Assembly (NCBI GenBank): GCA_019075925.1
Contig: JAGXAC010000007.1
Coordinates: 1-42,383 of the forward strand
DNA length: 42,383 nucleotides
Reading direction: 5' to 3'
DNA from: Hyphomicrobiales bacterium
GTDB lineage: Bacteria > Pseudomonadota > Alphaproteobacteria > Rhizobiales > Xanthobacteraceae
The position numbers and the translations under genes are program-made. The notes beneath the pieces are model-generated. The model saw only the letters and a program-made list of their open reading frames with translations. It ran no database searches and had not been told where the DNA came from. Of the stretch, positions 13,542-33,164 are shown in pieces (position 1 is the stretch's first letter; the number at the start of each line of letters is the position of its first letter).

Positions 13542-13576
13542 GCTACCCTCCCCGTTGTCGGGGCATTGCCCCTTTT

Positions 13577-17488: not shown

Positions 17489-19114
17489 TCAGCGCCTCCT
17501 GGTTCCAAAAACGGACGAGAAGCGCGGCGCGCCGTGGGTCGAGCCGGCCGGCGATGCGGCTGGCGACGGCGGTGCGCTACGCGGCGGCGGCGATGGCGGT
17601 GCCGTTCGCGTTGGCGCCGCCGGCGTCGGCCGCTCGTAAGCCACGCGCTGCGGCACGGGTGAAGGCGGTGTAGACGGCGCCGGCTTCGCCGCCGACGCCA
17701 GTTGCGGCGTACGCGAGCGATCCGCGACACCGGCGCGCTCGTGCGAGCCGCCCTGCCGCGACGACATCCGGCGGAATTCATCGCGCAGCGGCCAGTTGGC
17801 CTTTTCGGCGGCAACCTGCGCGCATTCGATCAACGCGCAATTTTTCGCTTCGCGCCGGTGGGCTTTCATGTCGCCGTCGCGATACATATTCAGCATGCGG
17901 AATTCCAGCGGGTCCATGCCGACGGCAACCGCGCCCTTGTCCATTTGGCATTCGAGTGCAAAATCGAGCGCCGTGACGCCGAAGCCGCGCATGGCGGTCG
18001 CCGGCGTGCGATTGGTGAAAACGCAATACACGTCTGCGTGCACATTCGGGATGGTGTACGGCCCGGGAATGTGGGCCACGCATTTAACCACGGCGTAGCT
18101 CGATAGCCGAGTATAGGCGCCTGAGTCGAAGTACGCGCGCACCGAGCGCGCGACGATCCGGCCGTCTTTGGCGAGGCCATCCTTGACGTAGATGCGCTCG
18201 GCGCCGCGCGGCGAGCCGAACTGCATCTCCTCATGCCGGCTGAGCCGGTAGCGCACCGGCGCGCCGGTCAATCGCGCCGCCAGGATGCACAACGGCTCGG
18301 TGAGCGTGTCGACCTTGCCTCCGAATCCGCCGCCGACCGTGCCACCGATAAAATGCAGCTGGTTCGATTGTACGGCGTTGATCTTGGCGGCGGTATCGAG
18401 CGAGAAGAACAACGCTTGCGTAGAGGTGTAGACGATGTAGCGGCCGTTGGTGTCGGGCACCGTGATCGAACCGTTGGTCTCGGTCGGCGCGTGCTCGATC
18501 GGTGACATCTGATAGCGATCTTCGATGACGATATCGGCCTGCCTGAATCCCGCTTCGACGTCGCCGAAGCGCAATTTCTGATGATCGTACTTACCGTAAT
18601 ACTCGAAAGTGTTTTTCGGATAAGTAGCGTTGACCGACGGCGCACCGGCCTTGATCGCTTCCTCCACGTCGAGCACGGCCGGAAGCTGATCGTATGACAC
18701 GCGCACCAGCGCCAGGGCTTCCAGCGCGGCTCGCTCGGAGGTCGCAACGATGCCGAGGATCGGCTCACCCTTGTAGCGTACGACGTCGGACGCGAGCGAA
18801 GGCTCGTCGTCCTTGCCAAACTGGATCAAACTCAACAGCGTATTGAGATTAACCGGGACATCGGCCGCGCGAATGATCCGCTTGACCCCCGGCGCCCGCG
18901 CCGCCACCGAGTCGTCGATCGAACGGATGCGCGCGTGCGCATGCGGGCTGCGCAGGATTTTCAAATGCAGCAGATTGGCAAAACGGTGATCGTCGTAATA
19001 AGGCGAAGTGCCGGTGACGTGACCGAGAATGTCTTGGCGAGCGGTCGGCTGGCCGATCTCGACCAGGCTATCGTCGCGTTCGTCGGCGAAGATGTCTTTG
19101 CGGAATTCCAGCAT
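17489..19114 (-). CDS. Molybdopterin-binding subunit, N-terminal half, with Pro-rich tail
   Basis: 541 residues. Residues 15-450 are the N-terminal half of a xanthine-dehydrogenase-family large subunit: IGQPTARQDILGHVTGTSPYYDD, GGTVGGGFGGK (257-267) and AMRGFG (374-379), the xanthine-dehydrogenase-type loop. The Cys-containing loop of form I CO dehydrogenase is absent, so it is not CoxL. After about residue 450 homology ends and a Pro/Ala/Ser-rich tail of about 90 residues runs to the TGA at 17489-17491. The rest of the subunit begins two bases later in another frame. AAGGAAT precedes ATG 19114, 11 nt after the 2Fe-2S gene. The substrate is probably an aromatic N-heterocycle or aldehyde (inference). 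Confidence 0.9.
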   Translation of the reverse strand: MLEFRKDIFADERDDSLVEIGQPTARQDILGHVTGTSPYYDDHRFANLLHLKILRSPHAHARIRSIDDSVAARAPGVKRIIRAADVPVNLNTLLSLIQFGKDDEPSLASDVVRYKGEPILGIVATSERAALEALALVRVSYDQLPAVLDVEEAIKAGAPSVNATYPKNTFEYYGKYDHQKLRFGDVEAGFRQADIVIEDRYQMSPIEHAPTETNGSITVPDTNGRYIVYTSTQALFFSLDTAAKINAVQSNQLHFIGGTVGGGFGGKVDTLTEPLCILAARLTGAPVRYRLSRHEEMQFGSPRGAERIYVKDGLAKDGRIVARSVRAYFDSGAYTRLSSYAVVKCVAHIPGPYTIPNVHADVYCVFTNRTPATAMRGFGVTALDFALECQMDKGAVAVGMDPLEFRMLNMYRDGDMKAHRREAKNCALIECAQVAAEKANWPLRDEFRRMSSRQGGSHERAGVADRSRTPQLASAAKPAPSTPPSPVPQRVAYERPTPAAPTRTAPPSPPPRSAPPSPAASPAGSTHGAPRFSSVFGTRRR

Positions 19115-19125
19115 CGTCTATTCCT

Positions 19126-19605
19126 TCAAGCGCGGCGACGGTTGTCGCTGCCGGCGACGTCCATCACCGCCTGGATGATCGGCTCGTAGCCGGTGCAACG
19201 GCAGATGTTGCCACACAACGCGTCGATGACCTCGGCGCGGGTCGGATTGGGATTGCGGTCGAGCAGAGCCTTGGCCGCCATCAGCATCCCCGGCGTGCAA
19301 TAACCGCATTGCGCGGCAAATCGGTCCATAAACGCCTGCTGCAGTGGGTGCAGGTCGGCGCCGCGGCGCAAACCGGCGGTGGTTTCGACCGACTTGCCGG
19401 CGCAGGCTTCGGCAAGCGTCACACAGGAAAGCCGCGGCACGCCGTCGATCAAAACGGTGCACGTACCGCAGGTGCCCTGCCAGCAGCCGCCTTTCACCGA
19501 AAGATCGCCGACGGTCTCGCGCAGCGTGTCGAGAAGGTTGGCGCCACTTTCCACGAATGTGGCGACTGCTTCGCCGTTAAGATGGAACTGGATCGGAGTC
19601 TTCAT
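19126..19605 (-). CDS. 2Fe-2S subunit of molybdenum hydroxylase
   Basis: 159 residues carrying two 2Fe-2S clusters that pass electrons between molybdenum and FAD. The plant-ferredoxin-type cluster uses Cys41, Cys46, Cys49 (CWQGTCGTC) and Cys61; the second cluster uses Cys100 and Cys103 (CGYC) and Cys135 and Cys137 (CRC). ATG 19605 follows GAGGAG and begins seven bases after the FAD-subunit stop. The same frame is open much further upstream but that part is an out-of-frame shadow of the FAD subunit. Gene order FAD, 2Fe-2S, Mo is that of Cox-type hydroxylases. No signal sequence, so cytoplasmic. Confidence 0.96.
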   Translation of the reverse strand: MKTPIQFHLNGEAVATFVESGANLLDTLRETVGDLSVKGGCWQGTCGTCTVLIDGVPRLSCVTLAEACAGKSVETTAGLRRGADLHPLQQAFMDRFAAQCGYCTPGMLMAAKALLDRNPNPTRAEVIDALCGNICRCTGYEPIIQAVMDVAGSDNRRRA

Positions 19606-19612
19606 CGGCTCC

Positions 19613-20431
19613 TCACGTATGGACCGCACCGAGCAACAGCCGGCGCAGGTAAACCGGAAGAATCTCGCGGCGCCACCAGGCGCTGGCGATAGCGTCGTCG
19701 ACCGGCGCCGTTCCATCGGCGGCGACCGCAAGCGCCGGAGCGATGCCGGCGGCGTCAAGCGGACGCCCCTCGAGTGCCCGTTCCGCCGCCTTCGCGCGCA
19801 ACGGCGTTTGCCCCATCGCGTTGTACGCAATGCGCGCGCCGGCAATACGACCGCTTGCGACCGGCAATTGGGCGGAAATCGAAAGCACTGAGATGCCCTT
19901 CGGATGCACGCGGGTGACCTTGTGGAAGCGAAACACATCGGTCGGTGGCCGGCGGAACGCAACCGAAGACACCAGCGACGTGCCGCGGTCGCGGCGCCCG
20001 AGAAACTCTTCCAGCGGCAGTTCGCGCTGGCCGAAACCGCCGGCGAACTGAGCCGTCGCATCGAGCGCGAGCAGAGCCGCCGCGAAATCCCCATAGGGAC
20101 TGTTCGCAAACAGATTACCGCCGACGGTCGCCGCCTCGCGTACCGCCGGGCCGCCGACGGCGCGCGCGACGGGATGTAAAAAGGCAAGCTCGCGCTCGGC
20201 GAGAATGGCCGCCATCGTGACGCCGGCGCCGAGCTCGACACGGCCGGATGACACCGAAATGTGCTGCAACGCCGGATCGGTCGAGCGGATGATGGTCTGT
20301 ACCGAGGGGTCAGCCTCGTTGATCGCGCGCATGATCAGCGTGCCGCCGCCGAAAAAATGGGCACCGCGCTCGCTCGAAAGCGCATTTGCCGCGTCGGCCA
20401 GACGATCAAAGGTCTTGATGGTAACGGTCAC
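19613..20431 (-). CDS. FAD-binding subunit of molybdenum hydroxylase
   Basis: 272 residues, the CoxM-type medium subunit. The FAD pyrophosphate site is formed by FFGGGTLIM near residue 30 and the second motif REAATVGGNLF around residue 100, both standard for this family. The C-terminal CO-dehydrogenase-flavoprotein domain ends near ILPVYLRRLLLGAV. The GTG start at 20431 overlaps the stop of the upstream SRPBCC gene (GTGA). It accepts electrons from the 2Fe-2S subunit and hands them to an unidentified acceptor. Confidence 0.95.
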   Translation of the reverse strand: MTVTIKTFDRLADAANALSSERGAHFFGGGTLIMRAINEADPSVQTIIRSTDPALQHISVSSGRVELGAGVTMAAILAERELAFLHPVARAVGGPAVREAATVGGNLFANSPYGDFAAALLALDATAQFAGGFGQRELPLEEFLGRRDRGTSLVSSVAFRRPPTDVFRFHKVTRVHPKGISVLSISAQLPVASGRIAGARIAYNAMGQTPLRAKAAERALEGRPLDAAGIAPALAVAADGTAPVDDAIASAWWRREILPVYLRRLLLGAVHT

Positions 20432-20889
20432 GCGCGGCCCTCCAGCCCCGACGAGGCGGCGAGCTGCGCACGGATCGCCGCAAAACCCGCTTCATAGATG
20501 TCTTCGCTGACCATGCGGGTCATTTCGGCTTCCTCGCCATTGCGGGTGGTAAACGAGCATCGCCAATCCCAGAACGTGCGGTCGCCGTCGGTAACCGGCG
20601 CCAGCCGCACATGGGCGACATAATTGAACAGCGGAACCGGCGTATCGATCAGGCAGTAACTGAAGGTTTGTTCGAGGTCGGACAACGTCAATAGCTGCTC
20701 ACGCAGTTCCGCGCCGTCGCGCAGAAAAAAGTGTCGCACACAGCCGACCTTGTCGGAGCTTTGACCGCGCTCGATGCTGCTCTTGCCGACTGCCGGATGC
20801 CAGCGGTCGTGGCCATTGAAATCGCGCAGCAGCGCCCATACGCGATCGGTCGGCGCGTCGATGATGGTTGAGCGCACGATGCGGATCAC
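20428..20889 (-). CDS. SRPBCC-family protein (CoxG/polyketide-cyclase-like), copy 2
   Basis: 153 residues from GTG 20889, four bases after the stop of the first copy and with GGAGG upstream; an earlier in-frame start at 20925 would overlap that gene. The START/Bet-v1-like fold is recognised by IDAPTDRVWALLRDFNGHDRWHP at the start, the SDKVGCVRHF strand and the C-terminal helix around EAGFAAIRAQL. It is a clear paralogue of the preceding gene. SRPBCC proteins bind hydrophobic ligands, and CoxG of this superfamily accompanies molybdenum hydroxylases. The overlap with the FAD-subunit gene supports a hydroxylase link. Function within the complex is unproven. Confidence 0.88.
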   Translation of the reverse strand: MIRIVRSTIIDAPTDRVWALLRDFNGHDRWHPAVGKSSIERGQSSDKVGCVRHFFLRDGAELREQLLTLSDLEQTFSYCLIDTPVPLFNYVAHVRLAPVTDGDRTFWDWRCSFTTRNGEEAEMTRMVSEDIYEAGFAAIRAQLAASSGLEGRA

Positions 20890-20893
20890 CGCC

Positions 20894-21331
20894 CTAGCCT
20901 CCGAACTGCCGCTTGAGCGCGTCAAAGCCGCCCTGAAACACCCCGCCGCCGATATTGGAGATCAACTCCGCCTCGCGCTCCGGAGCGCAATCGAACTCCG
21001 CCGTCCATTCGACGAAGGTCCGCTCACCATCGGTGATCGGCGTGAGCCGCAGCGTAGCCACATAGTTCTCGACTCCCATCGGCGATTCCAGGATCGAGTA
21101 GGTGCAAAACAAATCGAAGTCGGACAGGCCGAGCAGCTTTTCGCGAATGCGGTCTCCGTTACGCAGACGAAAGTCGCGCACGCAGCCGATCTTGTCCGAC
21201 GGCTCACCGTTCTCGATACGGCTTTCCGCAATTCCCGGATGCCATGACGGCAAGCCATTGAAATCGCGGACACGTGCCCAAACGCGATCGGAGCGGCCAT
21301 TGATGACGCTCGATACATAGACGCGAGCCAT
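20894..21331 (-). CDS. SRPBCC-family protein (CoxG/polyketide-cyclase-like), copy 1
   Basis: 145-residue START/Bet-v1-like protein. It shares with its downstream neighbour the pattern RVWxxxRDFNGxxxWHP, SDKxGCVRxF, LxLSD and the TDGxRTF turn, so the two arose by tandem duplication. ATG 21331 is preceded by AGGAAAAAGGA, 39 nt after the flotillin stop, the widest gap in the long minus-strand unit. A ligand-binding or chaperone role for the adjacent hydroxylase is inferred from CoxG. The two copies may form a heterodimer or bind different ligands. Confidence 0.9.
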   Translation of the reverse strand: MARVYVSSVINGRSDRVWARVRDFNGLPSWHPGIAESRIENGEPSDKIGCVRDFRLRNGDRIREKLLGLSDFDLFCTYSILESPMGVENYVATLRLTPITDGERTFVEWTAEFDCAPEREAELISNIGGGVFQGGFDALKRQFGG

Positions 21332-21370: not shown

Positions 21371-24300
21371 CTACCCGGTGCTGTCGCCGCCACCGCCGCC
21401 ACCGCCCTCGCCCGGCGGCTTTTTCGCGGTTTCCTTGCGGATGCCCTGCATATCGCGAGCCTCCCGGATAAGACCCGGCATACGCGCGAGACTGCCGCCC
21501 TCGATGCCGATCTCGGCCAATATCTGATCGATCATCGGCGCCTGCACGCGATAGCGAAGCGCCGAATCGATCACCTCGTCGGTCGCGCTGCGGCCGCCAC
21601 CGCCGTCGCGGCCGCCGCCGTTCAACCCGTCGACCTGAAGGATGCGGATGCCTTCGATCTTCTCCATTGGCTTGACGCTTTCGCGCACGATACCCTCAAT
21701 GCGCTCCAGCAGCCGGCGGCGGAAGATCGATGCACGCGCCGAATCCGACAGCACATTCTCCGCCTCGTTGAACGCACGTTGGGATTCGGCTTCAACGGTG
21801 GCGCGCACCTGCTCGGCAGCCGCGGCAATGCGGACTTCCTCGGCTTCCTTCTCGGCGATCACCAGCTCGACCTGACGCCGGCGCCGTGCCGCTTCGCTTT
21901 CGCGTACCGTCTTGACCCGCTCTTCGGCCTCGACCGCCTGCGCGCGCGCAGCCTCGGCATCGGCCTGCGCCACCGACTGCTCACGCGACTTCCGGGCGAT
22001 TTCGATGGCGCTGTCCATGCGGGCGTTCTCGACCGTGGTTTCGCGCGCAATCTCGAGCTGCCGCAACTCACGATCACGCAAGATGCGCGCTTCGTCGATG
22101 CCGCGTTCGGAAGCGATCCGCGCGCGCTCGATTTCCTCGCGCGCGGCGATCTCGGCTTCCTGCAGCGCCTGGCCGCGGGCGACTTCGAACTGCTCAATCG
22201 CACGCCGCCGCTCCAGTCGGGCAAGCTCGATCGTCTGTTCGCGCACCACGTCGGTGCGACCAACCTGCTGTGCGGCGATAATGTCAGCTTCCTTGACCTT
22301 CCGATCGGCATCAGCACGCTCGGCAAGCTTGGCCGCGACCTCGATCGAACGCGCCTGCTCGGCGATTTCGATGACCTTGCGGCGCTCGACGTCGAGAACG
22401 TCGCGGGTCTTCGACGATTCAATCCGCTCGCGCTCAAGCGTAAGCTCGGTCGCGATCCGCGCCGCCTCGACAGCCTCGCGTCGCCGGATTTCGGCGTCCT
22501 CAATCGCCTCTTCGCGGGAAATCTCGAGCGCCCGGGTGGACTGCTCGGCCGCAATACGATCGGCTGCGACCTTCTTCTCCTGAGCGATACGGCTCGCTTC
22601 AACCGCCTCGCGGGCGGCTATTTCAGCGGTATCGACCGCACGATTGCGGGCGATTTCGAGCGTTCGCACTTCCTCGTCGCGGGCGATCCGCTCGGAGGCT
22701 ATCTTGCGATCCTCGGCGATGCGAACTGTTTCGACCACCTGACGCGAGGCGATCTCGGCGGATTCAATCGCTTCGTTACGGGCAATTTCCAGCCCGCGGG
22801 TCGCCTGATCGGCGACGATGCGATCGGCGGCGATCTTTTTGTCGAGCGCGATACGCGCGGTCTCGGTCGAATCGCGAGCGGCGATCTCAGCCGCCTCGAC
22901 GACCTTGATCCGGGCAATTTCGCGGTTTCTGGTTTCTTCCTCGGCGGCGATGCGTTCGACCGCGATCTTCCTTTCCTGCGCGATGCGCTGCGCCTCGACG
23001 GCCTCGCGCGACGCGATCTCGGCTTGCTCGATCGCCCGGTTACGCGCGATATCGAGAGCGCGAACGCGCTCCTCCTGTTGGATTCGCGCCGCCGCCATGA
23101 CTTCGCGCGCAGCGATGTCGGATTCCTCCAGCGAGCGATTCCGGTCGATCTCCAGTGTCCGGGTGGCAAGCTCGGAGGCGATACGCTCGGCCGCGAGCGC
23201 CTTTTCGCGGGCGATGCGGGCTGCTTCGGTCGCCTTCGCCGCCGCGATCTCCTCCTCGTCGATGGCGCGGTTGCGCGTGATCTCACGACGACGGATTTCC
23301 TCTTCAAGCGCGATGCGCTCGTCGGTGACCACGCGTTCCTGCGCGATGCGGGCGCGCTCGGTCGCCTCACGGGCGGCGATCTCGGCCTGCTCCAGGTTGC
23401 GTGCGCGTTCGATCTCGAGCCGGCGGTTCTCCTCATCCTTGGCGATGCGGGCGACGGCGACGGCGAGTTCCTGCTGGATGCGCGCCTTTTCGGTCTCCTC
23501 GCGCGCAGCGATTTCGGCCTGTTCGACCGCGCGAACTCGCTCGATCTCGCGCCGCTGGTCCTCTTCCTGGCGGGCGATGCGGGCGTCGGTGATAACGCCT
23601 TCCTGCGCAATACGGGCACGCTCGACCCGTTCACGGGCGGCGATTTCGGCTTCGTCCACCTGGCGGCCGCGCTCGATCTCGCGCTCACGGATGTCGCGCT
23701 CGGAGACGATGCGCGCCTCCGCCAATGCCCGCTCATGCGCAATGCGGGTCTTTTCCACCTCTTCGCGGGCGGCGATCTGGGCCTGTTCGGCCTCGGTGTC
23801 GCGCAGCGAACGCTCGCGCGCCAGTTCGGCACGCTGCACTGCGCGCCGTACTTCAATGTCGCGCTCCTGATTGAGGCGCGCGGTTTCGCTTTCGCGGTCG
23901 ATTTCGAGCGCCTGTTTCTCGGCCTCCAAGTTGCGGGTTCGGATCAGGATCATCGAATCCTGCTCGATGTCGTTGCGCAATTTGCGCCGCGACTCAATGT
24001 CCTCGATGAGTTTGGTCAAGCCTTCCGCGTCAAAGCGGTTTGACGGGTTGAAAAATTCCAGGTCGGTCTGGTCGAGGTCGGTGATCGCCACCGATTCCAG
24101 CTCAAGGCCGTTTTGTTCGAGCGCATCGCGCGCGGTTTCTTTCACGCGGTTGACGTAATCGCCGCGGCGCTCGTGCATTTCCTCCATGGTCATTTCGGAC
24201 GCGACCGAGCGCAGCGCGGACACCAGTTTGCCTGACAGGAGCGCATCGAGCTCGGCAACATTGAGAGTACGCCGGCCGAGTGTGGCGGCGGCAGTGGTCA

Positions 24301-24628
24301 CCGCTTCGCGCGTCGGCGGCACGCGGACGTAGAACTCGGATTCAATATCGACGCGCATGCGATCCTTGGTGATCAGCGCATCGTCCCGATTGCGCACGAC
24401 CTGCATGCGCAGGACGTTCATATTGACCGGGGTCACCTCATGAATGAAGGGAAGGACGAACGCGCCCCGGTTGATGATTACTTTTTCGCCGAACAGGCCG
24501 GTGCGGACGAAGGACAATTCCTTCGACGAGCGGCGATAGAGCCAGTTTACGAAGTAGACGACGATCGCGATGACGATGACCGCGACGATCAGCCAGATGA
24601 TCAGGCTGCCGAGAATGGCGACGGACAT
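21371..24628 (-). CDS. Flotillin/SPFH (band 7) protein with 44-residue coiled-coil repeats
   Basis: 1085 residues, about twice the length of usual bacterial flotillins such as FloT or YqiK. Residues 5-31 are one membrane segment (LIIWLIVAVIVIAIVVYFV). An SPFH/band 7 domain follows (about 40-215: LPFIHEVTPVNMNVLRMQVV, DRMRVDIESEFYVRVPPT, RDALEQNGLELESVAITDLDQTDLEFFNP). Residues 283-868 are a charged coiled coil built from 44-residue units starting with AEIAARE. A flotillin-like end (960-1055) and a Gly-rich tail GEGGGGGGGDSTG close it. GGGAGGGAG lies upstream of ATG 24628, five bases after the PEP-hydrolase-type gene. Flotillins organise membrane microdomains; co-transcription with transporter and hydroxylase genes suggests a scaffold for them (inference). 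Confidence 0.93.
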   Translation of the reverse strand: MSVAILGSLIIWLIVAVIVIAIVVYFVNWLYRRSSKELSFVRTGLFGEKVIINRGAFVLPFIHEVTPVNMNVLRMQVVRNRDDALITKDRMRVDIESEFYVRVPPTREAVTTAAATLGRRTLNVAELDALLSGKLVSALRSVASEMTMEEMHERRGDYVNRVKETARDALEQNGLELESVAITDLDQTDLEFFNPSNRFDAEGLTKLIEDIESRRKLRNDIEQDSMILIRTRNLEAEKQALEIDRESETARLNQERDIEVRRAVQRAELARERSLRDTEAEQAQIAAREEVEKTRIAHERALAEARIVSERDIREREIERGRQVDEAEIAARERVERARIAQEGVITDARIARQEEDQRREIERVRAVEQAEIAAREETEKARIQQELAVAVARIAKDEENRRLEIERARNLEQAEIAAREATERARIAQERVVTDERIALEEEIRRREITRNRAIDEEEIAAAKATEAARIAREKALAAERIASELATRTLEIDRNRSLEESDIAAREVMAAARIQQEERVRALDIARNRAIEQAEIASREAVEAQRIAQERKIAVERIAAEEETRNREIARIKVVEAAEIAARDSTETARIALDKKIAADRIVADQATRGLEIARNEAIESAEIASRQVVETVRIAEDRKIASERIARDEEVRTLEIARNRAVDTAEIAAREAVEASRIAQEKKVAADRIAAEQSTRALEISREEAIEDAEIRRREAVEAARIATELTLERERIESSKTRDVLDVERRKVIEIAEQARSIEVAAKLAERADADRKVKEADIIAAQQVGRTDVVREQTIELARLERRRAIEQFEVARGQALQEAEIAAREEIERARIASERGIDEARILRDRELRQLEIARETTVENARMDSAIEIARKSREQSVAQADAEAARAQAVEAEERVKTVRESEAARRRRQVELVIAEKEAEEVRIAAAAEQVRATVEAESQRAFNEAENVLSDSARASIFRRRLLERIEGIVRESVKPMEKIEGIRILQVDGLNGGGRDGGGGRSATDEVIDSALRYRVQAPMIDQILAEIGIEGGSLARMPGLIREARDMQGIRKETAKKPPGEGGGGGGGDSTG
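22025..23782 (-). repeat. 132-bp tandem repeats inside the flotillin gene
   Basis: Coding repeat of 44 residues (132 bp), each made of four 11-residue units of the pattern x(E/R)IAxE. Unit starts fall at residues 283, 327, 371, 415, 459, 503, 536, 580, 624, 668, 712, 756, 781, 825 and 869. All steps are 44 except 503-536 (33, exactly one 11-mer lost) and 756-781 (25, a phase break). The 11-residue period predicts a nearly straight or slightly right-handed coiled coil. Confidence 0.88.
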
Positions 24629-24633
24629 CTTAC

Positions 24634-25524
24634 TTACTCCCTCCCTGCTCGCCGACCTTGCGGTCCGACACGAGCCGTTTCATGAGTTGGCTGTACTTTC
24701 TTGATTGCCTTGAATTTTGCAACCTGAGCAAGAAGCGCTCGCTCGACCGGCAATCGCTCCATCGACGACGCACCGTAGAAACCGTGACAGTGGCGGGCAT
24801 GCGCCAGCACATATTCGGCGTCGGCCGGTTCGGCGATCGGGCCGCCATGCACCAGAATTAAGACGTCGCGGTTCACCGCAAATGCAGCTTCTGCCATCGC
24901 GTCGGTGAGCTTTGGGCAGTCTTCAAGACGCGGCGCAGTCGAAGCTCCGATCGAGCCGCCGACGGTCAGACCGAAATGGCAAACCAGGATGTCCGCACCG
25001 GCGCGTGCCATGGCAGCGGCTTCCGACGGATCGAACACGTAAGGCGTCGTCAGCAGATCATGGGCGCGCGCTTTGGCGATCATCTCGACCTCGCGCTCAT
25101 AGCCCATGCCGGTCTCCTCAAGCCCGGCCCGAAAGCGGCCATCGATCAGGCCGACCGTCGGAAAGTTCTGGATGCCGCTAAATCCGAGCCGCGCGATCTC
25201 GTCGAGGAACACGTCCATCTGGCGGAACGGATCGGTGCCGCAAACGCCGGCCAAGACCGGCGTCGCCGAAACCACCGGCAACACTTCCCGCGCCATGTCC
25301 AAAACAATGCCGTTGGCATCGCCAAAGGGCATCATGCCGGCCAGCGAACCGCGTCCGGCCATCCGGTAGCGGCCGGAATTGTAAATGACGATCAGGTCGG
25401 CGCCGCCCTTCTCTTCACCCTTGGCCGAAATGCCGGTGCCGGCGCCGGCGCCGATGATCGGTTCGCCCCGCGCCTGCATGGCGCGGAAGCGGGCAAGGAT
25501 ATCCGAGCGGGGGATGCGGGCCAT
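24634..25524 (-). CDS. PEP-hydrolase-type TIM-barrel protein (Tm-1 C-terminal half)
   Basis: 296 residues of the phosphoenolpyruvate-hydrolase-like TIM-barrel family (PF09370). Diagnostic segments are [40 protein letters not shown] and [14 protein letters not shown]. The family forms the C-terminal half of the tomato Tm-1 antiviral protein and of related bacterial and fungal proteins; its biochemical reaction is not settled. ATG 25524 follows the TAA of the Tm-1 N-terminal-half gene by two bases, with AGGGG upstream. The stop is five bases before the flotillin start. The two adjacent genes together rebuild a complete Tm-1 architecture, so the proteins probably act as one complex. Confidence 0.9.
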
Positions 25525-25526
25525 CG

Positions 25527-27740
25527 TTATCCCCTCACCCGGCGGCGCGTCAGCCGGCCGCCAAACAGCCGGCGGAATTCGGCGACGACCGCGTCGGAAA
25601 AGCGCGGATCGTTGATGTGCTCAGGCATCCTGACGAGCCGGCGTGTTGCGGTCTGCCGCACGGTGCCCTCCAGCGCCCGAAACAACTCAGTGTCAGCGTT
25701 CGGATCGGAGAATGCACGCCCCGGAGCGTCGAGAGCGGAGACGCCGCCTTCGGGAAGGAAGAAGCGCACTGGCCCATCCATCAGATTGAGCCGTTCGCCG
25801 ATCCAGCGTCCGATGCGCGCGTTCTCCTCCGGAGTCGTGCGCATCAGCGTCACCGTTGGATTGTGGACCTGGAGCGTGCGGCCGCGGTAACGCTCGGGCA
25901 CAGTGTCCATCGGCCCGAAGTTGACCATGTCGAGCGCCCCGCACGAGCCAATATACGGGATGCGCGTACGCGCTATCGCGCCGAAGCGATCCTCGGTTGC
26001 CGGCAACACGCCGCCGAGCAGAAGATCGCATACTTCCGTCGTGGTGATGTCGATGACGCCGGCGAGCGCGCCGGAATCGACCAGCTTCTCCATCGATTGC
26101 CCGCCGACGCCGGTGGCATGAAAAACCATGCACTCGAAATCGTCTTCCAGTGCATGGACAATCGCGTCAACGCAGGGCGTCGTGACGCCGAACATGGTCA
26201 GGCCGATTGCAGGCTTGCCGCTCGCGCGCCGGGCCGGTTCGCGCTCGGCGCCGGCGGCGCCGCGAGCCTTCACCATCCCGACCATTGCGGCCGCCCCGTT
26301 TGCGAGTATCTGCCGTGATACCGAGTTCAGTCCGGCGACATCGGTCACCGAATAAAGCATCATGATATCCGAAGGTCCGACATAGGGCGCGACGTTGCCC
26401 GAGGCCACGGACGAGATCAGCACTTTCGGCACGCCGATCGGTAGTGCGCGCATGGCGGGCGCCACCAGCGAGCTTGCGCCGGAGCCACCGGCCGAAATCA
26501 ACCCGCCCACCGGCTCCTGCCGCTTGATCCAGGTTTCGAATGCCTGCGCCATTGCGGTGATCGCACCGCCGCGGTCGCCGGTGAAGACGGCGTTCGGACC
26601 GCCGCGGAAATAGGTGGCGACATGGTGCGGCGGCACATCCGCCGGCGACGGTTTGCCGGTTGTCGATAGATCGACCAGCAAAACGCGCACGCCGGCGCTC
26701 GCAATCTGATCGCGGATGAAGCGAAGCTCGTCGCCCTTAGTGTCGAGCGTGCCGGCGACGATAACCGGCGCGACGCCGCCGCGATGAATAGGCCGCAACT
26801 CCACGGCCGGCGCGGATGCGATCGCCGCAGGCTCGGGCGCCGTGGTACGCGTGCGCGCGCTGGTTTCGATCTGGGCCGACGGTGCGGGTTGCGACCAGCG
26901 CGTCGGCAATACCGGATTGGAATTGTAAACCCTGATCGGACCTCGGGGTTTGGTAACACGCCGCTCGCCCTGCGGCGCGGCCGCCTCATCGGCACTCCCG
27001 AGCGGCTCCTCCGCGCCGTGCTGGCCGACGCCCAAGAGACGTTGTTGCAGGTCGCGATCGGCTTCGAGGCGGGCGGCTTCCATGATCCGGTTGACCCGGC
27101 CATTGATCATGATCGCCACTTTTTCGGCGACCGCGGTGGCGACCCCGATATTTTGTTCGACGACAAAGACGCCGATTTCACCCTCCGCCGCGAGATTGAG
27201 CAGAATTTCCTCGACTCTCTGCACGATGACCGGGGCGAGGCCTTCGGTCGGCTCATCCATGATGAGCAGACGCGGGTTGAGCAGGAATGCCCGCGCAATG
27301 GCGAGCATCTGCTGCTCGCCGCCGGAAAGCTGGTTGCCGCGGTTCGTCCGGCGTTCCGCCAGCCGCGGGAACGCCTCGTAGATGCGCGCGACGGTCCAGT
27401 TCGCCCGACTACCGCCGGACGCGAGTTGCAAATGTTCGTCGACCGTGAGCGACGGCCATAGCCGCCGGCCTTGCGGCACGTAACCGATGCCGAGCCGCGC
27501 GATCTCGGCCGGCGTGCGTCCGACCAACTCTTCGCCCATGAAGCGGATCGAGCCGCTGGCGATCGGCGTCAAGCCGACGATCGCCTTGCACAAAGTGGTC
27601 TTGCCCATGCCGTTGCGGCCGACCAGCGAGAGGACACCTTGCTCGAGCTTCACATCGACGCCCTGCAGGGCGTGACTGCGGCCGTAGAAGACGTTCAATC
27701 CCCTGATCTCGAGCAGATCGGGCGGGCGGCGTTCAACCAT
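25527..27740 (-). CDS. LivF-type ABC ATPase fused to Tm-1-like ATP-binding domain (UPF0261)
   Basis: 737 residues. Residues 1-238 are a complete LivF-type ATPase: Walker A GRNGMGKT (41-48), signature LSGGEQQ (138-144), Walker B LLIMDEP (158-164) and VVEQNIG. A linker of about 85 residues rich in Ala, Pro and Arg follows. Residues about 322-737 are a UPF0261/Tm-1-like domain: [12 protein letters not shown] (327-338), SAGGSGASS (416-424), [17 protein letters not shown] and [13 protein letters not shown] 27740 overlaps the LivG stop by 8 nt. The first half serves the Liv importer; the second is the N-terminal half of the Tm-1 family, whose plant member binds ATP and the viral helicase domain. 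Why it is tied to a transporter is unknown. Confidence 0.93.
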
Positions 27741-28515
27741 GACCGCCTCCCAAATAGAGTTGCTGGACTTCGGGATCCGCCTCGATCTCCTGCGGCGAGC
27801 CTTCTTTGAATATGCGGCCGTTGTGCATCATCGTGACGCTTTCGACGACGCGCAGCGCCACGTCCATGTCATGCTCGATGATGATGTAGCCGATATGGGC
27901 GGGCAGCGCGGTGAGAATGGCGACGAGGTCGCGCCGCTCGTTCGGCGACAGGCCCGCCGCAGGCTCGTCGAACAGAATGAACCGCGGCGCGCCGGCGAGC
28001 GCCAGCGCAATTTCGAGCTGGCGTTGCTGCCCGTGCGCCAACTCGCCGACCAGGCGATCGGTCACGTCTTCCAGATGGACGAGGGAAATGAGGTCGGCGA
28101 CCGACTGCATGATCGGATCGCTCGCGCGCGCGCGGATCAGCGAGAAGCGGCTGCGCGAGACGCCGCGGCAGGCGAGATAGACGTTATCGCGCACGGTCAG
28201 TCGCGGGAACAGAAGCGAAATCTGGTATGTCCGCCGCAATCCGCGCCGGATGCGCTCGTGCGGCGGCAGCAAGGTAACATCTTCGCCGAAGAAACGTACG
28301 GTCCCCGACGTGGGCGGAAAATCGCCGGTAACGCAATTAAGCAGCGTCGTCTTGCCGGCGCCGTTCGATCCAAGAACGGCGCGGCGTTCGCCGGGGCGCA
28401 CGCTCAGCGTAATGTCGGTCAGGGCGCGCAGCGCTCCGAACATGCGGCTTACGCCACGCAATTCGATCGCGTTGCCGGTGCCGGCGGCGGCCATTCTTTC
28501 GGCGATGGAACTCAC
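27733..28515 (-). CDS. livG: Liv-type ABC ATPase, LivG family
   Basis: 260 residues from GTG 28515, which overlaps the LivM stop (GTGA); an ATG seven codons later is also possible. Walker A GSNGAGKT is at 49-56, followed by the LivG-type Q-loop region [17 protein letters not shown], a signature in the LivG form [17 protein letters not shown], Walker [15 protein letters not shown] and the switch His in [11 protein letters not shown]. The LivG insertion of about 40 residues is present. It would pair with the ATPase half of the downstream LivF-Tm1 fusion to power the importer of cassette B. Confidence 0.94.
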
Positions 28516-29582
28516 CGCCCGCTCCTGCCGTTCGTGGCGCCCACCCGCGTCACCCAGCGCCGCCACAGGCCGACGACGCCATCGGGAGAAAACAGCACGA
28601 TGACGAGAAACCCGAGACCGATCAGAGTCTGAAAGCGGCGTCCATCGAGACCGACCGCAACCAGCGCGTCGAGCGCGAAGGTGCGAAGCATCACATAGAT
28701 GAACGCACCGATGAACGGCCCAATCGGATGGCCGAGACCGCCGACCACCGCGATCACCAAGAGGTTGATGACGACTGCAACGTCGACCGAGAAAGGGGAA
28801 ATCTGATTGTTTTGCCAGACCAAGAGAATTCCGCCGATCGCAGCGATAACGGCGGCAAAAGCATAAGCGGCAATGCGATGGGCCGTAACGTTATACCCGA
28901 TCGCTTCCATGCGACGGGGATTGTCGCGCACGCCCTGGAGCGCGAGGCCAAACGGCGAGCGGGAAACGTACAGGACGACGACGTAACTGAGCGCCGCGAA
29001 GAACAGGATCATGTAGTAAAGCGGAACTGGATCGCCCCATTTCACGCCAAAAAAATGCGGGGCGGGAATGGTTGTAAAGCCGTTGAATCCGTTAAAGATC
29101 GGCCAGTTCTGCAGCGCCAGATAAAAGAACGACGTCGCCAGCGCCAGCGTGATCATGATCGTGTAAATGCCCTCGGTACGGGCCGAGAGCGCACCTGCAA
29201 GCGTGCCGAAGGCCACGGCTATGACGATGGCCAGCGGCGCGGCGACCCACCACGGCCAGAAAAAGCTGACCTTGGGGAGCGAACTCACCCCGAGCACAGC
29301 GATCATGTAGCCGGCGACGCCGGCCACGGTCATTTGCGCAAGGCTGACCATGCCGCCGTAGCCGCCTAAGAACATCAACGACAGCGCGATCATGCCAAGG
29401 ATCATGGTCCAGCCGGCAATCTGCCGAAGGAAAAAATCATTGGCGATGGCGGGAAAAATCATCATGAAAACGCCAAGCAAAAGGATCAGCGCATGGCGCG
29501 ACACCCAGCGTCCAAATTCGCCGCCGCGCTGCGCCTCGCCTACGCCGAGCGGCGTTTCCCGGGTGGTTTCGGCAAGCGCCAT
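28512..29582 (-). CDS. livM: Liv-type ABC permease, LivM family
   Basis: 356-residue inner-membrane permease with about ten hydrophobic segments. LivM marks include FLGGYGGMVSLAQMTVAGVAGY, GIYTIMITLALATSFF and VAVVINLLVIAVVGGLGHP followed by GPFIGAFIYVML. The ATG at 29582 overlaps the LivH stop by one base (TGATG) and the stop overlaps the LivG GTG. It forms the translocation pathway with LivH. The N-terminal 25 residues are polar and cytoplasmic. Confidence 0.94.
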   Translation of the reverse strand: MALAETTRETPLGVGEAQRGGEFGRWVSRHALILLLGVFMMIFPAIANDFFLRQIAGWTMILGMIALSLMFLGGYGGMVSLAQMTVAGVAGYMIAVLGVSSLPKVSFFWPWWVAAPLAIVIAVAFGTLAGALSARTEGIYTIMITLALATSFFYLALQNWPIFNGFNGFTTIPAPHFFGVKWGDPVPLYYMILFFAALSYVVVLYVSRSPFGLALQGVRDNPRRMEAIGYNVTAHRIAAYAFAAVIAAIGGILLVWQNNQISPFSVDVAVVINLLVIAVVGGLGHPIGPFIGAFIYVMLRTFALDALVAVGLDGRRFQTLIGLGFLVIVLFSPDGVVGLWRRWVTRVGATNGRSGR

Positions 29583-30649
29583 CAGCGTCTCCCCAAAAGT
29601 CCCTGCGGACGCAGCGCCAGCACGATGACCATGATCAGAAAACTCAAGACGGTCGAATAATTCTGAAAATAGACGGTACCGATCTGTTCGGAGAGAGCGA
29701 TGATAAGCGCCCCGATCGCGGCGCCCGGTATCGATCCCATGCCGCCGACGATGACCACCACCAGCGACGCCAGCAAGAAATGCGAATCTTCGCCGAGTGA
29801 AAGCGACTGGAATGTACCCCCAACGATGCCGGCCATGCCGGCAAGTCCGGCGCCGAACGCGAACACCACGACAAACAGAAGCTGGACGCGATAGCCGAGA
29901 ACCGAGAGCATGTCGCGGTCGTCAACACCGGCTCGGATCATCACGCCGATCCGGGTGCGGTTGAGCGCCAGCCACATCCCCACTCCGATGACGACTGCGG
30001 CGGCAAAGATGACCAGGCGCACGGCGGGATAGTGCAGGTAAAACGCCTCGCCGTTCGATTTGACGAAGACGACGATGGGCATCCCGACCGGACCATCCAA
30101 ATAATCCGGCGTATCGATCTGAATGGCGTTACCGCCCCAGACCCACACCATCAGATCGGAGAAGACGATTGACAAACCCAGCGTCACCAGCGTCTGTCGC
30201 AGATCCTGTCCCTCCATCCGGCGAAAGATGAAGAACTGCATGGCGACGCCGACAACGGCACAGCTCAAAAACGCAATCACGTAGCTGAACAGCCACGACC
30301 CGGTCCATTGCGTGGCTTCGTAACCCATATAGCCGCCGAACAGATAGAGCGAGCCGTGCGCCAGGTTGACGTTGCGCATCAAGCCAAAGATTAGGGTGAA
30401 ACCGGCGGCCACCAAAAAATAAAGCCCGCCGAGCGTGATCCCGTTGAACAGCGCGTTGATGAAAATCAGTTTTTTGCCGAATACCTGCTCGAAGCCGGCA
30501 GGCCACGGTGCCAGCACCAGCCACAAGACAAATATGACCGCGACCGCAATGATCAGCGCCCAAACGGGATGACGGCCGATCCAACGGCCGAACGCGTCAC
30601 CACCCGTGGCGGTCTCGGTTCGCTGCTCATTGTCGAAAATTGTGGCCAA
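29582..30649 (-). CDS. livH: Liv-type ABC permease, LivH family
   Basis: 355-residue permease, first gene of the long minus-strand unit. The start is taken as TTG 30649 because GGAGG lies six bases upstream; an in-frame TTG at 30670 falls inside the T-run of a terminator and is unlikely. Eight or nine hydrophobic segments follow a polar N-terminus of about 30 residues. LivH marks are FNGITLGGLYFLVAAGFTLIFG, NLAHGSLYLFGGYMGY and SLVVVIVGGMGSIPGAAIGA. The permease pairs with LivM. Ligand is unknown, though the hydrolase and hydroxylase genes downstream argue against a plain amino acid. Confidence 0.92.
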   Translation of the reverse strand: MATIFDNEQRTETATGGDAFGRWIGRHPVWALIIAVAVIFVLWLVLAPWPAGFEQVFGKKLIFINALFNGITLGGLYFLVAAGFTLIFGLMRNVNLAHGSLYLFGGYMGYEATQWTGSWLFSYVIAFLSCAVVGVAMQFFIFRRMEGQDLRQTLVTLGLSIVFSDLMVWVWGGNAIQIDTPDYLDGPVGMPIVVFVKSNGEAFYLHYPAVRLVIFAAAVVIGVGMWLALNRTRIGVMIRAGVDDRDMLSVLGYRVQLLFVVVFAFGAGLAGMAGIVGGTFQSLSLGEDSHFLLASLVVVIVGGMGSIPGAAIGALIIALSEQIGTVYFQNYSTVLSFLIMVIVLALRPQGLLGRR

Positions 30650-30668
30650 CGGGGTCCTCCGCACGAGC

Positions 30669-30696
30669 AAAAACTACCTGAGCAGAGGCGCTCAGG
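30669..30696 (-). terminator. Rho-independent terminator between the AraC-type gene and livH
   Basis: On the minus strand a perfect 7-bp stem CCTGAGC/GCTCAGG (30696-30677, six-base loop) is followed by TAGTTTTTG. It lies 31 nt after the regulator stop and only about 20 nt before the livH start. It should end the regulator transcript, or act as an attenuator for the genes that follow, since little space is left for another promoter. Confidence 0.65.
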
Positions 30697-30727: not shown

Positions 30728-31552
30728 CTACTCGCTGACGACCCTGGCGATGGTCCGGTACTGTGTGGGCGCTATCCCCACATGGGACGAAAAGAAATGA
30801 GTGAAGTGGCTCTGTGACGAAAAGCCCAGTTCGCAGCCGATGTCGGTAACCGAGGCTTGCGAAGCGGTCAGCCGGTCGAGCGCCCGTTCCACTCGCATGG
30901 TGTTGGCATAAAGCGCGGGAGTTACCCCGGTATTTTCGCGGAACAGCTTGAAAAAGTGCGGCCGGGAAAGACCGGCATCACGGGCCACGGCGTCGAGCTC
31001 AATAGCCTGGCCGACACCGCTGTCCAGGATACGGAGCGATTTGCGCACGCGAAAATCAATGGCATCCCGCCGCACCGCCGGGGACGGTCTTTGCCCGCCT
31101 CGCCACGATTCGTGAAAACTCGCATCAAAAAGTTGATTCAAATAGCGATTGACGATGCGATAGCTGGCATTGGTGACCAGGACGTGGGCAAGACTTGCGC
31201 AGATTGAGCGGAGCGTGGTTCCGACCTGAATGGCGTTTGAGCCAAAGCGCAGACTGCCGCGGCCTTCCTGGTCGCAGTCGAGCCAGCGGTCGCAGATATA
31301 GGCCACCAGAAAGACCGAAGGCTGGTCGGGCGCCGTTGGCTGAAACGAGTGCGGCTGCCACGGATTGATCGCTACGCCGGCCGCCTGATCGACCAGGTGC
31401 GGAACATCATCGATGGTTACGATTGCCGGCGAGCCATTAAGCAGGAACGTCAGATGGCCCTCGCGGTGGGCATGCATGCGCATCGGCTTGTCAAGCCGAT
31501 AGACCGTTACTCGGCCAAATGAGCCATGACAGACGGCCAACGCCGTACTCAT
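30728..31552 (-). CDS. AraC-family transcriptional regulator
   Basis: 274 residues from ATG 31552, chosen for GGGAGGGG upstream. The N-terminal half is a cupin-like ligand-sensing domain (RMHAHREGHLTFLLNG and VAINPWQPHSFQP). The C-terminal 100 residues are the double helix-turn-helix AraC domain, with LDAVARDAGLSRPHFFKLFR as the first and VTDIGCELGFSSQSHFTHFF as the second, followed by GIAPTQYR. It lies between the Liv genes it precedes and the divergently transcribed binding-protein gene, the usual position for a local substrate-responsive activator. It probably controls cassette B and its binding protein. Confidence 0.94.
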   Translation of the reverse strand: MSTALAVCHGSFGRVTVYRLDKPMRMHAHREGHLTFLLNGSPAIVTIDDVPHLVDQAAGVAINPWQPHSFQPTAPDQPSVFLVAYICDRWLDCDQEGRGSLRFGSNAIQVGTTLRSICASLAHVLVTNASYRIVNRYLNQLFDASFHESWRGGQRPSPAVRRDAIDFRVRKSLRILDSGVGQAIELDAVARDAGLSRPHFFKLFRENTGVTPALYANTMRVERALDRLTASQASVTDIGCELGFSSQSHFTHFFSSHVGIAPTQYRTIARVVSE

Positions 31553-31578
31553 AAGCCGTCCCCTCCCACAACGCATAT

Positions 31579-31871: not shown

Positions 31872-33164
31872 ATGCGAAAGGGCTTACTGTTGGCAACGGC
31901 GGCCGGATTTGCCGCGTTGGTTGCGACCGGATCGGCCAATGCTGCCGACAAACTCAAAGTGGGCGTCACCGCCACGCTCGAAGGTACCTATACCGTGCTC
32001 GGCGAAGACGGCATGCGCGGTTACGAACTTGCGGTTGAAGCGCACGGCGGCAAGGCCGGGGGCAAAGAGATCGAGACCGTCGTCGGTTCGACCGACGCCA
32101 GCCCTGATTCGGCCATTCGCGCCGCCAAGAAATTGGTCGAGCAGGATAAGGTCGACATGATGATCTCCCCGCTTTCGGGCGCGGAAGGCATCGCGATCCG
32201 GGATTACTCAAAGACGCAGCCGCAGATTACATTCATGAATGCTGGATCCGGCGCGCTTGAGACCACTTACGGCGATCCATCCGCTGGCATCAAGCCATCG
32301 CCGAATTTCTACCGGACCAACCTGGATGGCGCGCAGTGGCACGCCGGCCTCGGCGACTATGCCTATAACGTCAAACACTACAAAAAGATTGCGACGATCG
32401 GCGAAGATTACGCCTTCGTCTACACGCAGGTGATGGGCCTGGTGCTTGAGTATTGCAAGGCGGGCGGGCAAATCACCAAGCGTCTGTGGGTGCCGCTCGG
32501 CACCAAGGACTTCGCGTCTTACATCCCGCAGCTTCTCTCGGAAGACGTCGACGCCATCTATCTCGGTCTCGGCGGCGCGGATGCTGTGAACTTCCTCAAT
32601 CAATACCAGCAAGCCGGCGGTCACGCGCATCTGATCGGCGGTTCGATCATGGTCGACCAGACCGTTCTTTCATCGAAGGGCAAGGCCAAAGACGCGCTGA
32701 TTGGCACCATCGCTGCCAGCGGCATGGCCGACAACGACCCAAGTCCGAAATGGCAGGCGTTTGTGAAGGCCTACCAACAGCATGCAAAGACCGGTTATTT
32801 CAAGAACGCGTTCGCCAGCCCGTCGCTGCTCGCGATCAACTACTACAACTCGGCCGACGCGATGTTCAAGGCGCTCGACCAGGTGAAGGGCGATCTGTCC
32901 AATAACAACAAGGCGTTCCGCGAAGCGCTGAACAAGACTTCGCTCGACGCTCCGAACGGACACATCACGCTCGACGAGAACCGCCAGGCGATCGGCACCA
33001 ACTTCGTCACCGAGGTGGTGAAGGACGATAAGGGCGGCCTCGTCAGCAAGGTGGTCAAGGAAATTCCGAACGTGCAGGAGCGCCTCGGCTTCTCCAAGGC
33101 GGTGTTCGACAAGTTCGTTCCGCCGGGCCGCGAAAACCCGCCCTGCAAGAAGAACTACGAATAA
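31872..33164 (+). CDS. Liv-type ABC transporter substrate-binding protein
   Basis: 430-residue periplasmic binding protein (Peripla_BP_6). A strong AGGAGGG site precedes ATG 31872. The signal peptide MRKGLLLATAAGFAALVATG ends at SANA, giving mature ADKLKVGVTATLEG. AAKKLVEQDKVDMMISPLSG and ISGxNAGSGA-like segments belong to the hinge and ligand lobes; DAIYLGLGGADAVNFLNQY is typical. Divergent from the AraC-type gene and followed by a strong terminator, so it is a single-gene transcript. It most likely feeds the LivHMGF importer of cassette B. High separate expression of the receptor is usual for such systems. Confidence 0.94.
   Translation: MRKGLLLATAAGFAALVATGSANAADKLKVGVTATLEGTYTVLGEDGMRGYELAVEAHGGKAGGKEIETVVGSTDASPDSAIRAAKKLVEQDKVDMMISPLSGAEGIAIRDYSKTQPQITFMNAGSGALETTYGDPSAGIKPSPNFYRTNLDGAQWHAGLGDYAYNVKHYKKIATIGEDYAFVYTQVMGLVLEYCKAGGQITKRLWVPLGTKDFASYIPQLLSEDVDAIYLGLGGADAVNFLNQYQQAGGHAHLIGGSIMVDQTVLSSKGKAKDALIGTIAASGMADNDPSPKWQAFVKAYQQHAKTGYFKNAFASPSLLAINYYNSADAMFKALDQVKGDLSNNNKAFREALNKTSLDAPNGHITLDENRQAIGTNFVTEVVKDDKGGLVSKVVKEIPNVQERLGFSKAVFDKFVPPGRENPPCKKNYE

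Follow-up and report, generated by a model that had tools for sequence, protein, structure and literature searches.

An open reading frame (ORF) that joins a LivF-type ATP-binding cassette (ABC) ATPase to a UPF0261 protein lies on contig JAGXAC010000007.1 (assembly GCA_019075925.1) of a Hyphomicrobiales bacterium of the Xanthobacteraceae, the analysed stretch of which (42,383 nt, forward strand) is referred to here as the window. The ORF, at 25527-27740(-), is a single uninterrupted frame of 737 aa from ATG to TAA, and the fusion is real. The favoured reading, held tentatively at a probability of about 45%, is that the protein acts as the LivF of a dedicated Liv importer and carries a UPF0261 half of the small-molecule-kinase type, by which cargo would be phosphorylated on entry within a flotillin-organised catabolic assembly. 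What the sequence shows, and what this reading is drawn from, is a single polypeptide whose ATPase motifs are intact, the lack of another LivF nearby, a linker bearing a conserved RW motif, flotillin and SRPBCC genes that strictly accompany the fusion in the loci examined, and separately encoded nearest relatives of the LivF half.

The fused protein and its partners

Three Pfam models match the fusion, ABC_tran at residues 25-165 (1.9e-29), the UPF0261 N-terminal domain at 326-493 (4e-58) and UPF0261_C at 509-725 (2.7e-91), and both UPF0261 models (PF06792 and PF23189) score above their gathering thresholds. All three are matched by 27 of 27 proteins of alignment A1 and by four more divergent fusions checked singly (L160, L190, L194, and L209). 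A preliminary description of the window had placed UPF0261 behind a full LivF ATPase in one protein and had regarded the LivF fusion as the odd part of the locus; both points stand, and no stop occurs between residues 240 and 320, where that description had said that one would refute it. An assembly artefact or frameshift is ruled out by the recurrence of the same frame in 116 distinct ORFs, and a one-off fusion by these ORFs together with the fused relatives found in genome surveys. A predicted full-length model has a pTM of 0.49, too low to place the halves relative to each other.

The Walker A, Q-loop, signature, Walker B, and D-loop motifs are present in the window protein and invariant in all 27 members of A1. 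Counted by regular expression over the 116 distinct fused ORFs, Walker A was found in 114, a VPQ Q-loop in 109, the signature in 115, and Walker B, the D-loop, and EQN each in 116. No other LivF-like ORF lies within 8 kb, so far as the sequence extends, in 107 of the 109 fused loci that span 8 kb or more (86 of the 109 extend 4 kb upstream, 101 extend 4 kb downstream and 78 do both), the two exceptions being opposite-strand ATPase ORFs of 25-27% identity; further away some fused loci hold a second Liv set (L159 and L161). LivG, LivM, and LivH genes adjoin the fusion in 76 of 76 fused loci with 8 kb downstream and 4 kb upstream, and a gene for a periplasmic substrate-binding protein (SBP) does so in 50 of the 76. 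In the window the LivG gene and the start of the fusion share 8 bases. The fusion therefore appears to serve as the LivF of this importer, with a presumed role in powering transport. A second Liv system is also present in the window, with LivM and LivG joined in one 589-aa protein at 3798-5567(+), followed by a separate LivF (5564-6283) and by thiolase, short-chain dehydrogenase, cyclase, and glutathione S-transferase genes.

Conserved UPF0261 motifs are likewise retained, DTK in 116, HATG.GG in 115, HN in 113, and GGSG in 110 of the 116 fused ORFs, some of the gaps being contig ends (L027 and L088). The nearest solved proteins by sequence and fold are tomato Tm-1 and Saro_1862 of Novosphingobium aromaticivorans (PDB 9mpy), the latter solved with acetovanillone and thus the nearest relative of known ligand. 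Among 131 UPF0261 positions invariant in 27 compared fusions (from type A operons, described below, where the contig is long enough to tell), Tm-1 has the same residue at 101, Saro_1862 at 75, and both at 64, including D333-T334-K335, G418-G419-S420, H541, E569, D604, H626-N627, and R634. Other matches of the fold search (cutinases, PurE, and UDP-GlcNAc 2-epimerases, Z about 10) were weak and were not used. Since organism and ligand agree, and the authors of the MarK paper reportedly include a crystallographer, Saro_1862 is presumed here to be the kinase MarK. Acetovanillone breakdown in N. aromaticivorans starts with MarK, "a single-component kinase" (PMC13101465, citing the MarK paper). By analogy, the UPF0261 half would be a small-molecule kinase. 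In four loci (L158, L216, L218, and L224) a UPF0261 gene lies near genes for phosphoenolpyruvate (PEP)-binding or PEP-utilising proteins, families that include two-component aromatic kinases such as HpeHI (PMC12167813).

As the preliminary description stated, a PEP-hydrolase-type TIM barrel gene (PF09370; 24634-25524(-)) follows 2 bases past the TAA of the fusion. The PF09370 match covers the whole protein (421.5 bits against a cut-off of 33.8). In locus L173 (2432-4288) a sigma-54 activator encoded close to a Liv-UPF0261 operon has a PF09370 TIM barrel at its N terminus. The TIM barrel probably binds a small ligand, because it resembles 2p10 and its family also supplies the front domain of this activator, and it may contain a GASS-type phosphate site like those of other barrels.

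Operon, linker, and distribution

Flotillin is a further constant neighbour. Where 5 kb or more of downstream sequence is available, its gene lies near 100 of 100 distinct fused genes and near 0 of 32 unfused ones, counts that omit 16 of the 116 fused and 24 of the 56 distinct unfused ORFs, which have less than 5 kb. In the same sets LivG lies near 100 of the 100 fused genes, and the TIM gene near 97 of these and near 23 of the 32 unfused. Flotillin was identified by Band_7 and Flot in the window, L160, L194, and L209, and elsewhere by tblastn with the window protein only. SRPBCC genes, recounted as separate places in loci with 7 kb of downstream sequence since two related queries could match one gene, occur twice near 98 and three times near 1 of 99 fused genes; among 31 unfused genes 24 have none, five have one and two have two. 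Two fused loci fetched later from another class both contain flotillin, in one of them after the first SRPBCC gene, and one of the two has a second SRPBCC gene. The 754-aa open frame opposite the flotillin repeats of the window (21779-24043(+)) has probably arisen incidentally from these repeats and the high G+C content.

Two arrangements were distinguished (Table 1). In type A, found in the window, Bradyrhizobium, and others, the order is SBP, AraC, LivH, LivM, LivG, fusion, TIM, flotillin, SRPBCC, SRPBCC, CoxM, CoxS, CoxL1, CoxL2, CoxD, and CoxE, followed in loci long enough, with some absences, by amidohydrolase, metallo-beta-lactamase, and gluconolactonase-isochorismatase genes; the 2Fe-2S subunit is putatively named CoxS-like. 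In type B (Variovorax and others) the order is LivH, LivM, SBP, LivG, fusion, TIM, flotillin, and SRPBCC, and in the five type B loci scanned a second SRPBCC forms one protein with a zinc-type alcohol dehydrogenase/quinone reductase. L160, L179, L186, and L194 also contain nearby genes for an FAA hydrolase, alpha/beta hydrolase, or amidohydrolase, whereas the one additional gene scanned in each of L209 and L210 is unrelated (histidine kinase and EPSP synthase). An 81%-identical copy of the operon occurs in a contig titled Terriglobia (Acidobacteriota; L033), which may be misbinned.

Table 1. Coordinates of the fusion, its parts, and its neighbours (window positions unless a locus is named).
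Feature	Position	Strand	Basis
LivF-UPF0261 fusion, 737 aa	25527..27740	-	ORF reading + Pfam
LivF half, residues 1-237; Walker [11 protein letters not shown]90, [20 protein letters not shown]	27030..27740	-	Pfam, motifs; nearest solved stand-alone ATPase 1ji0
Linker, residues 238-325, 88 aa, mostly low pLDDT	26766..27029	-	predicted model + alignment
Linker motif PTRWS, residues 279-283	26892..26906	-	pattern search
UPF0261 half, residues 326-737 (Pfam end 725)	25527..26765	-	Pfam, fold comparison
PF09370 PEP_hydrolase/TIM barrel, 296 aa	24634..25524	-	Pfam 1.5e-126; 2p10 1.3e-113
Flotillin, 1085 aa (Band_7 + Flot, long repetitive middle)	21371..24628	-	Pfam
SRPBCC protein 1 (Polyketide_cyc2)	20894..21331	-	Pfam
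SRPBCC protein 2 (Polyketide_cyc2)	20428..20925	-	Pfam
FAD subunit of molybdenum hydroxylase (CoxM-like)	19613..20431	-	profile scan
2Fe-2S subunit (CoxS-like), start chosen at MKTPIQFHL	19126..19605	-	ORF reading
Molybdenum hydroxylase large subunit, part 1	17489..19114	-	best 3hrd_A, nicotinate dehydrogenase
Molybdenum hydroxylase large subunit, part 2	16461..17486	-	best 3hrd_B
AAA ATPase (CoxD/MoxR-like)	15567..16454	-	profile scan
VWA CoxE-like; ORF start overlaps CoxD, start provisional	14461..15873	-	profile scan
Amidohydrolase	13577..14611	-	profile scan
Metallo-beta-lactamase-fold protein	12693..13580	-	profile scan
SMP-30/gluconolactonase-isochorismatase fusion	11079..12674	-	profile scan; hits at the same place in several type A loci reaching that far
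LivG-type ATPase	27733..28566	-	profile scan
LivM-type permease	28512..29582	-	profile scan
LivH-type permease	29582..30670	-	profile scan
AraC-family regulator	30728..31576	-	profile scan
Periplasmic substrate-binding protein, divergent	31872..33164	+	profile scan, structure-database matches
Type B SRPBCC-dehydrogenase fusions	L186:7489-8994, L160:17210-18682, L178:11520-12992, L190:7432-8952, L210:11355-12869

The linker varies from 81 to 214 aa (median 89, 145 fused ORFs) and resists alignment by eye between type A and type B operons. It has no counterpart in unfused proteins, because their frames have few residues ahead of UPF0261 (a median of 29 was taken). A short motif, [TNP]RW[STNGQ], mostly PTRWS, nevertheless occurs in 116 of 116 linkers, where shuffling would lead one to expect 0.7. 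None of the 56 unfused frames has it, nor does any of the 116 fused proteins elsewhere than in the linker. The pattern was broadened once the linkers had been viewed, and the shuffled control leaves shared ancestry in; the stricter patterns NP..PTRW and P[TS]RW match 99 and 108 of the 116, respectively. In sequences fetched later from another class the motif is present in two of two fusions (twice in one) and in neither of two unfused frames, and a non-redundant check found it in all 16 of the fused tree rows reached (16 of 33). Model confidence is higher around the motif (block means of 56-60 at residues 271-300) than in the preceding block (27-41 at 241-270). The linker is thus not a plain spacer, and the conservation of a short motif in a probably disordered linker suggests that RW is a docking site.

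The frequency of the fusion was taken from surveys with PF06792, in overlapping samples, a genome being scored as fused-size when its UPF0261 reading frame was at least 740 aa (frame lengths as computed). Fused-size frames were found in 16 of 198 family genomes (31 with any PF06792 match), in 19 of 385 genomes at class level (50), in 14 of 398 at phylum level (38), and in 2 of 369 from a second class in the same phylum (13); a further family member, G098, with a frame of 495 aa at a contig end, also proved fused. Loci from the search queried with the fusion itself, the best 80 of 379, are fused by construction and enrich the fused count, and were not used for frequencies. The 224 loci examined gave 227 ORFs (145 fused and 82 unfused), the same gene being repeated in short and long loci, and by alignment these comprise the 116 fused and 56 unfused distinct ORFs, two ORFs counting as distinct when their UPF0261 cores differ within the first 300 residues; many of them are close Bradyrhizobium relatives. 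Fused hosts include Bradyrhizobium, Bosea, Microvirga, Limibaculum, and Roseitalea, and plasmid-borne fusions occur in Shinella, Yoonia, and the betaproteobacterium Variovorax. The genome surveys were made within the phylum; the Thermomicrobium roseum (T. roseum) and Haloarcula sequences were taken from plasmid records. The Yoonia and Variovorax plasmid records label the fusion "ABC transporter permease", which conceals it; by Pfam the Variovorax fusion has no permease domain.

Origin, cargo, and mechanism

A tree of UPF0261 domains was built from 172 sequences thinned to 77; it is of a quick type, several long branches join outside the fused group, and root, gain, and loss are not inferred by the tree itself. 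The 33 fused rows sit in one group of 35 (SH-aLRT 98), together with two unfused rows, L175 open at its base and L206 nested, and the fused rows require three changes on the tree. The simplest reading of this topology is one fusion with later loss. The fusion looks like a derived state that has been retained, because fused ORFs form one group within unfused UPF0261 ORFs, and an ancestral fusion is not favoured by the same grouping and changes. The fused LivF half is 57-59% identical to the separate LivFs that precede unfused UPF0261 genes in L158 (T. roseum), L173, and L183, 39-46% identical to the LivFs of four other unfused Liv loci (L182, L193, L197, and L202) and 36% identical to the other LivF of the window. 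The three nearest LivFs have short tails of at most about 14 residues beyond the aligned part. Because the closest LivFs stand separately before unfused UPF0261 genes and have such tails, it is most likely that neighbouring LivF and UPF0261 genes were fused in place and gained a linker.

The preliminary description had proposed that the ancestral role concerns an imported compound. The link to import is strengthened by the dedicated Liv importer with no second LivF close by, and by the permease genes that 13 of 36 unfused loci have within 7 kb, of Liv type in L158, L173, L182, L183, L193, L197, and L202 and of sugar type in L162, L163, L164, L188, L203, and L207; the physical fusion itself seems not to be ancestral and apparently arose from separate neighbouring genes. 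Consistent separation of the halves in homologues, which that description had named as a result that would speak against it, was found in part, as 56 distinct UPF0261 ORFs carry no ATPase and the fused ones form one group inside these.

A hydroxylated aromatic compound, or an N-heteroaromatic one, is the most probable cargo. The split hydroxylase of the operon is nearest to nicotinate dehydrogenase, the operon hydrolases belong to amide- or lactone-type families, and the SBP matches structure 4zpj, followed by 4ey3 and 4evq, which we take to be Rhodopseudomonas aromatic-acid binders. The class of cargo may vary across the UPF0261 family, because permease types differ and neither type was found near 23 of 36 unfused loci. 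In Bradyrhizobium diazoefficiens without nasT, during denitrification, bll3386 (AraC), bll3383-3385 (Liv), bll3377 (coxM), bll3376 (coxS), and bll3369 (gluconolactonase) are up 2.3-5.4-fold (PMC6759348). The fusion would be bll3382 in this organism, since the order counted from AraC as bll3386 lands exactly on coxM, coxS, and gluconolactonase; the number comes from this count, and the fold changes cover the operon genes named above. An expression link is weakened by the same data, in which other Liv systems also changed, blr2922-2926 by 19-25-fold and others downwards, and by the permease and ATPase labels of bll3383-3385, which disagree with the order in the window (PMC6759348).

From the observed gene structure and its conservation we infer each biochemical step, including the kinase step and the cargo. 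Cargo would enter through LivHM, ATP being hydrolysed by LivG and the fused LivF; the tethered UPF0261 half would phosphorylate it with ATP at the permease exit, trapping it inside, and the phosphorylated cargo would pass to the TIM barrel as substrate. In type A operons the product would be oxidised by the nicotinate-dehydrogenase-like molybdenum hydroxylase and the hydrolases would finish its processing. The SRPBCC proteins, of CoxG type, may make contact with the membrane or deliver electrons (for CoxG, a role in bringing CO dehydrogenase to the membrane has been proposed; PMC4240915), and flotillin, which in mammals forms membrane-attached cages (PMC11260169), may hold, enclose, or cluster importer and enzymes at one membrane patch. 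A bolder version, which is doubtful, would make the system an ABC counterpart of group translocation, in which an ATPase-borne kinase at the cytoplasmic exit makes uptake and trapping one process, the oxidising enzymes share a dedicated flotillin cage with the importer, and the RW motif of the linker docks to that cage.

Several observations weigh against the kinase-importer reading. Saro_1862 is only about 31% identical to the UPF0261 half, and L222, the one TIM-less protein compared, is nearer to Saro_1862 than to Tm-1, whereas L173, with a TIM neighbour, is nearer to Tm-1, so that Saro_1862 may represent a different branch and catalyse a different reaction. In three of 100 fused loci the fusion is not directly followed by a TIM gene: in the genome of L179 one lies about 3 kb before the fused frame, and in G625 and G683 (L209 and L210) the single PF09370 of the genome adjoins an unfused UPF0261 paralogue, leaving the fused operon without its own. 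As L206, nested in the fused group, is moreover unfused, pairing and tethering may not be indispensable everywhere. In addition, 23 of 36 unfused loci, some of them short, have no Liv- or sugar-type permease within 7 kb.

Among the alternatives, the UPF0261 half could be a regulatory domain that senses an imported metabolite or the ATP state and gates the ATPase, as do the C-terminal regulatory domains of other ABC ATPases (MetN, ModC, and MalK). Its C-terminal place on the ATPase subunit would fit such a role, and the sigma-54 activator of L173 indicates that a member of the pair is usable as a sensor; this possibility is nonetheless unlikely, though it deserves serious attention, given that the 101 and 75 invariant positions shared with Tm-1 and Saro_1862 would be unusual for a pure regulator and that unfused pairs occur apart from any ATPase, in catabolic-looking clusters. 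A neutral operon fusion, in which a lost stop joined co-expressed neighbours whose halves work independently and only their ratio is fixed, would agree with the adjacent but separate genes of T. roseum, 12 bases apart by annotation, and with the nested unfused L206. It is rather improbable in view of the long linker, which is found neither in the three LivF tails compared nor in unfused UPF0261 N-termini, of its universal motif, and of the restriction of flotillin to fused loci.

The kinase step itself could also be misassigned, the UPF0261/TIM pair being instead an ATP-using lyase or ligase that leaves the cargo unphosphorylated and is tethered for channeling. The reaction of a relative at 31% identity may not transfer, and the search turned up no activity for any TIM-paired UPF0261 protein, yet the relatives that have been solved and cited are most simply read as kinases, and we consider the lyase or ligase quite improbable. 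A defence function like that of tomato Tm-1, for which homology (3wry, 1.2e-95) is the argument, is scarcely credible beside a catabolic operon; when five proteins were submitted to PADLOC, all five hits fell on residues 21-213 of the fusion, in the generic ATPase half, and none on non-ATPase parts.

Comparison with known systems

No account of an ABC_tran-UPF0261 fusion, or of the operon as such, was found among the papers listed by the literature searches (20 of 2,161 in one of them), some of which were aimed at other questions and whose coverage mostly excludes subscription papers, and "ABC" does not appear in the available text of the 2016 paper on the origin of Tm-1 (PMC5028733). The new points are the conserved operon, its probable in-place origin, the linker motif, the coupling to flotillin, and the proposed kinase reading. 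The operon would represent a conserved uptake-and-oxidation system of Bradyrhizobium and other Alphaproteobacteria, without a description in the literature searched, and its association with flotillin in 100 of 100 cases gives a genetic way into the question of what a bacterial flotillin organises.

The fusion resembles the importer ATPases LivF and UrtE in its nucleotide-binding motifs, its operon place after LivG and its EQN switch, but differs in bearing a linker and a second, enzyme-like half, and it scores below both NCBIfam equivalog cut-offs (UrtE, 219.4 against 285.8 bits; LivF, 153.9 against 441 bits). The T. roseum plasmid NC_011961 (L158) has LivH, LivM, SBP, LivG, LivF, UPF0261, and TIM genes in this order and a molybdenum hydroxylase further on; there, however, LivF and UPF0261 are separate genes by annotation and no flotillin was detected. 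Nicotinate dehydrogenase (3hrd) shares with the operon hydroxylase a large subunit encoded in two genes and is the best solved match of both parts. Saro_1862 belongs to the same family and has the same fold along its full length (Z 32.3, rmsd 7.0, 387 residues), but it is a stand-alone protein of 406 residues and may belong to a branch without a TIM partner (L222 alone compared).

Tm-1 (PDB 3wry/3wrw; PMC5028733), whose family occurs in nearly all sequenced land plants, is homologous to the UPF0261 half along its length (VIA-align Z 45.7, rmsd 2.1, 384 residues), and its TIM barrel partner comes next in the same order, so that both Tm-1 halves are indeed present and adjacent in the window, as the preliminary description had noted. 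The UPF0261 and TIM families show correlated evolution (r 0.77 over 333 bacterial genomes; PMC5028733). The further claim that the gene pair rebuilds the Tm-1 architecture fails, since in Tm-1 the two halves form one polypeptide with no ATPase attached, whereas in the window LivF is the partner joined to UPF0261, and a stop sets off the TIM barrel as a protein of its own. Antiviral activity is known for the tomato protein, and no support for it was found in this catabolic cluster, so that the Tm-1 framing holds for ancestry, is wrong for the architecture, and lacks support as to function; the antiviral comparison is one of descent. With an importer-fused member and a relative of known aromatic ligand in hand, the original job of the Tm-1 family becomes testable as the question of which imported compound is phosphorylated.

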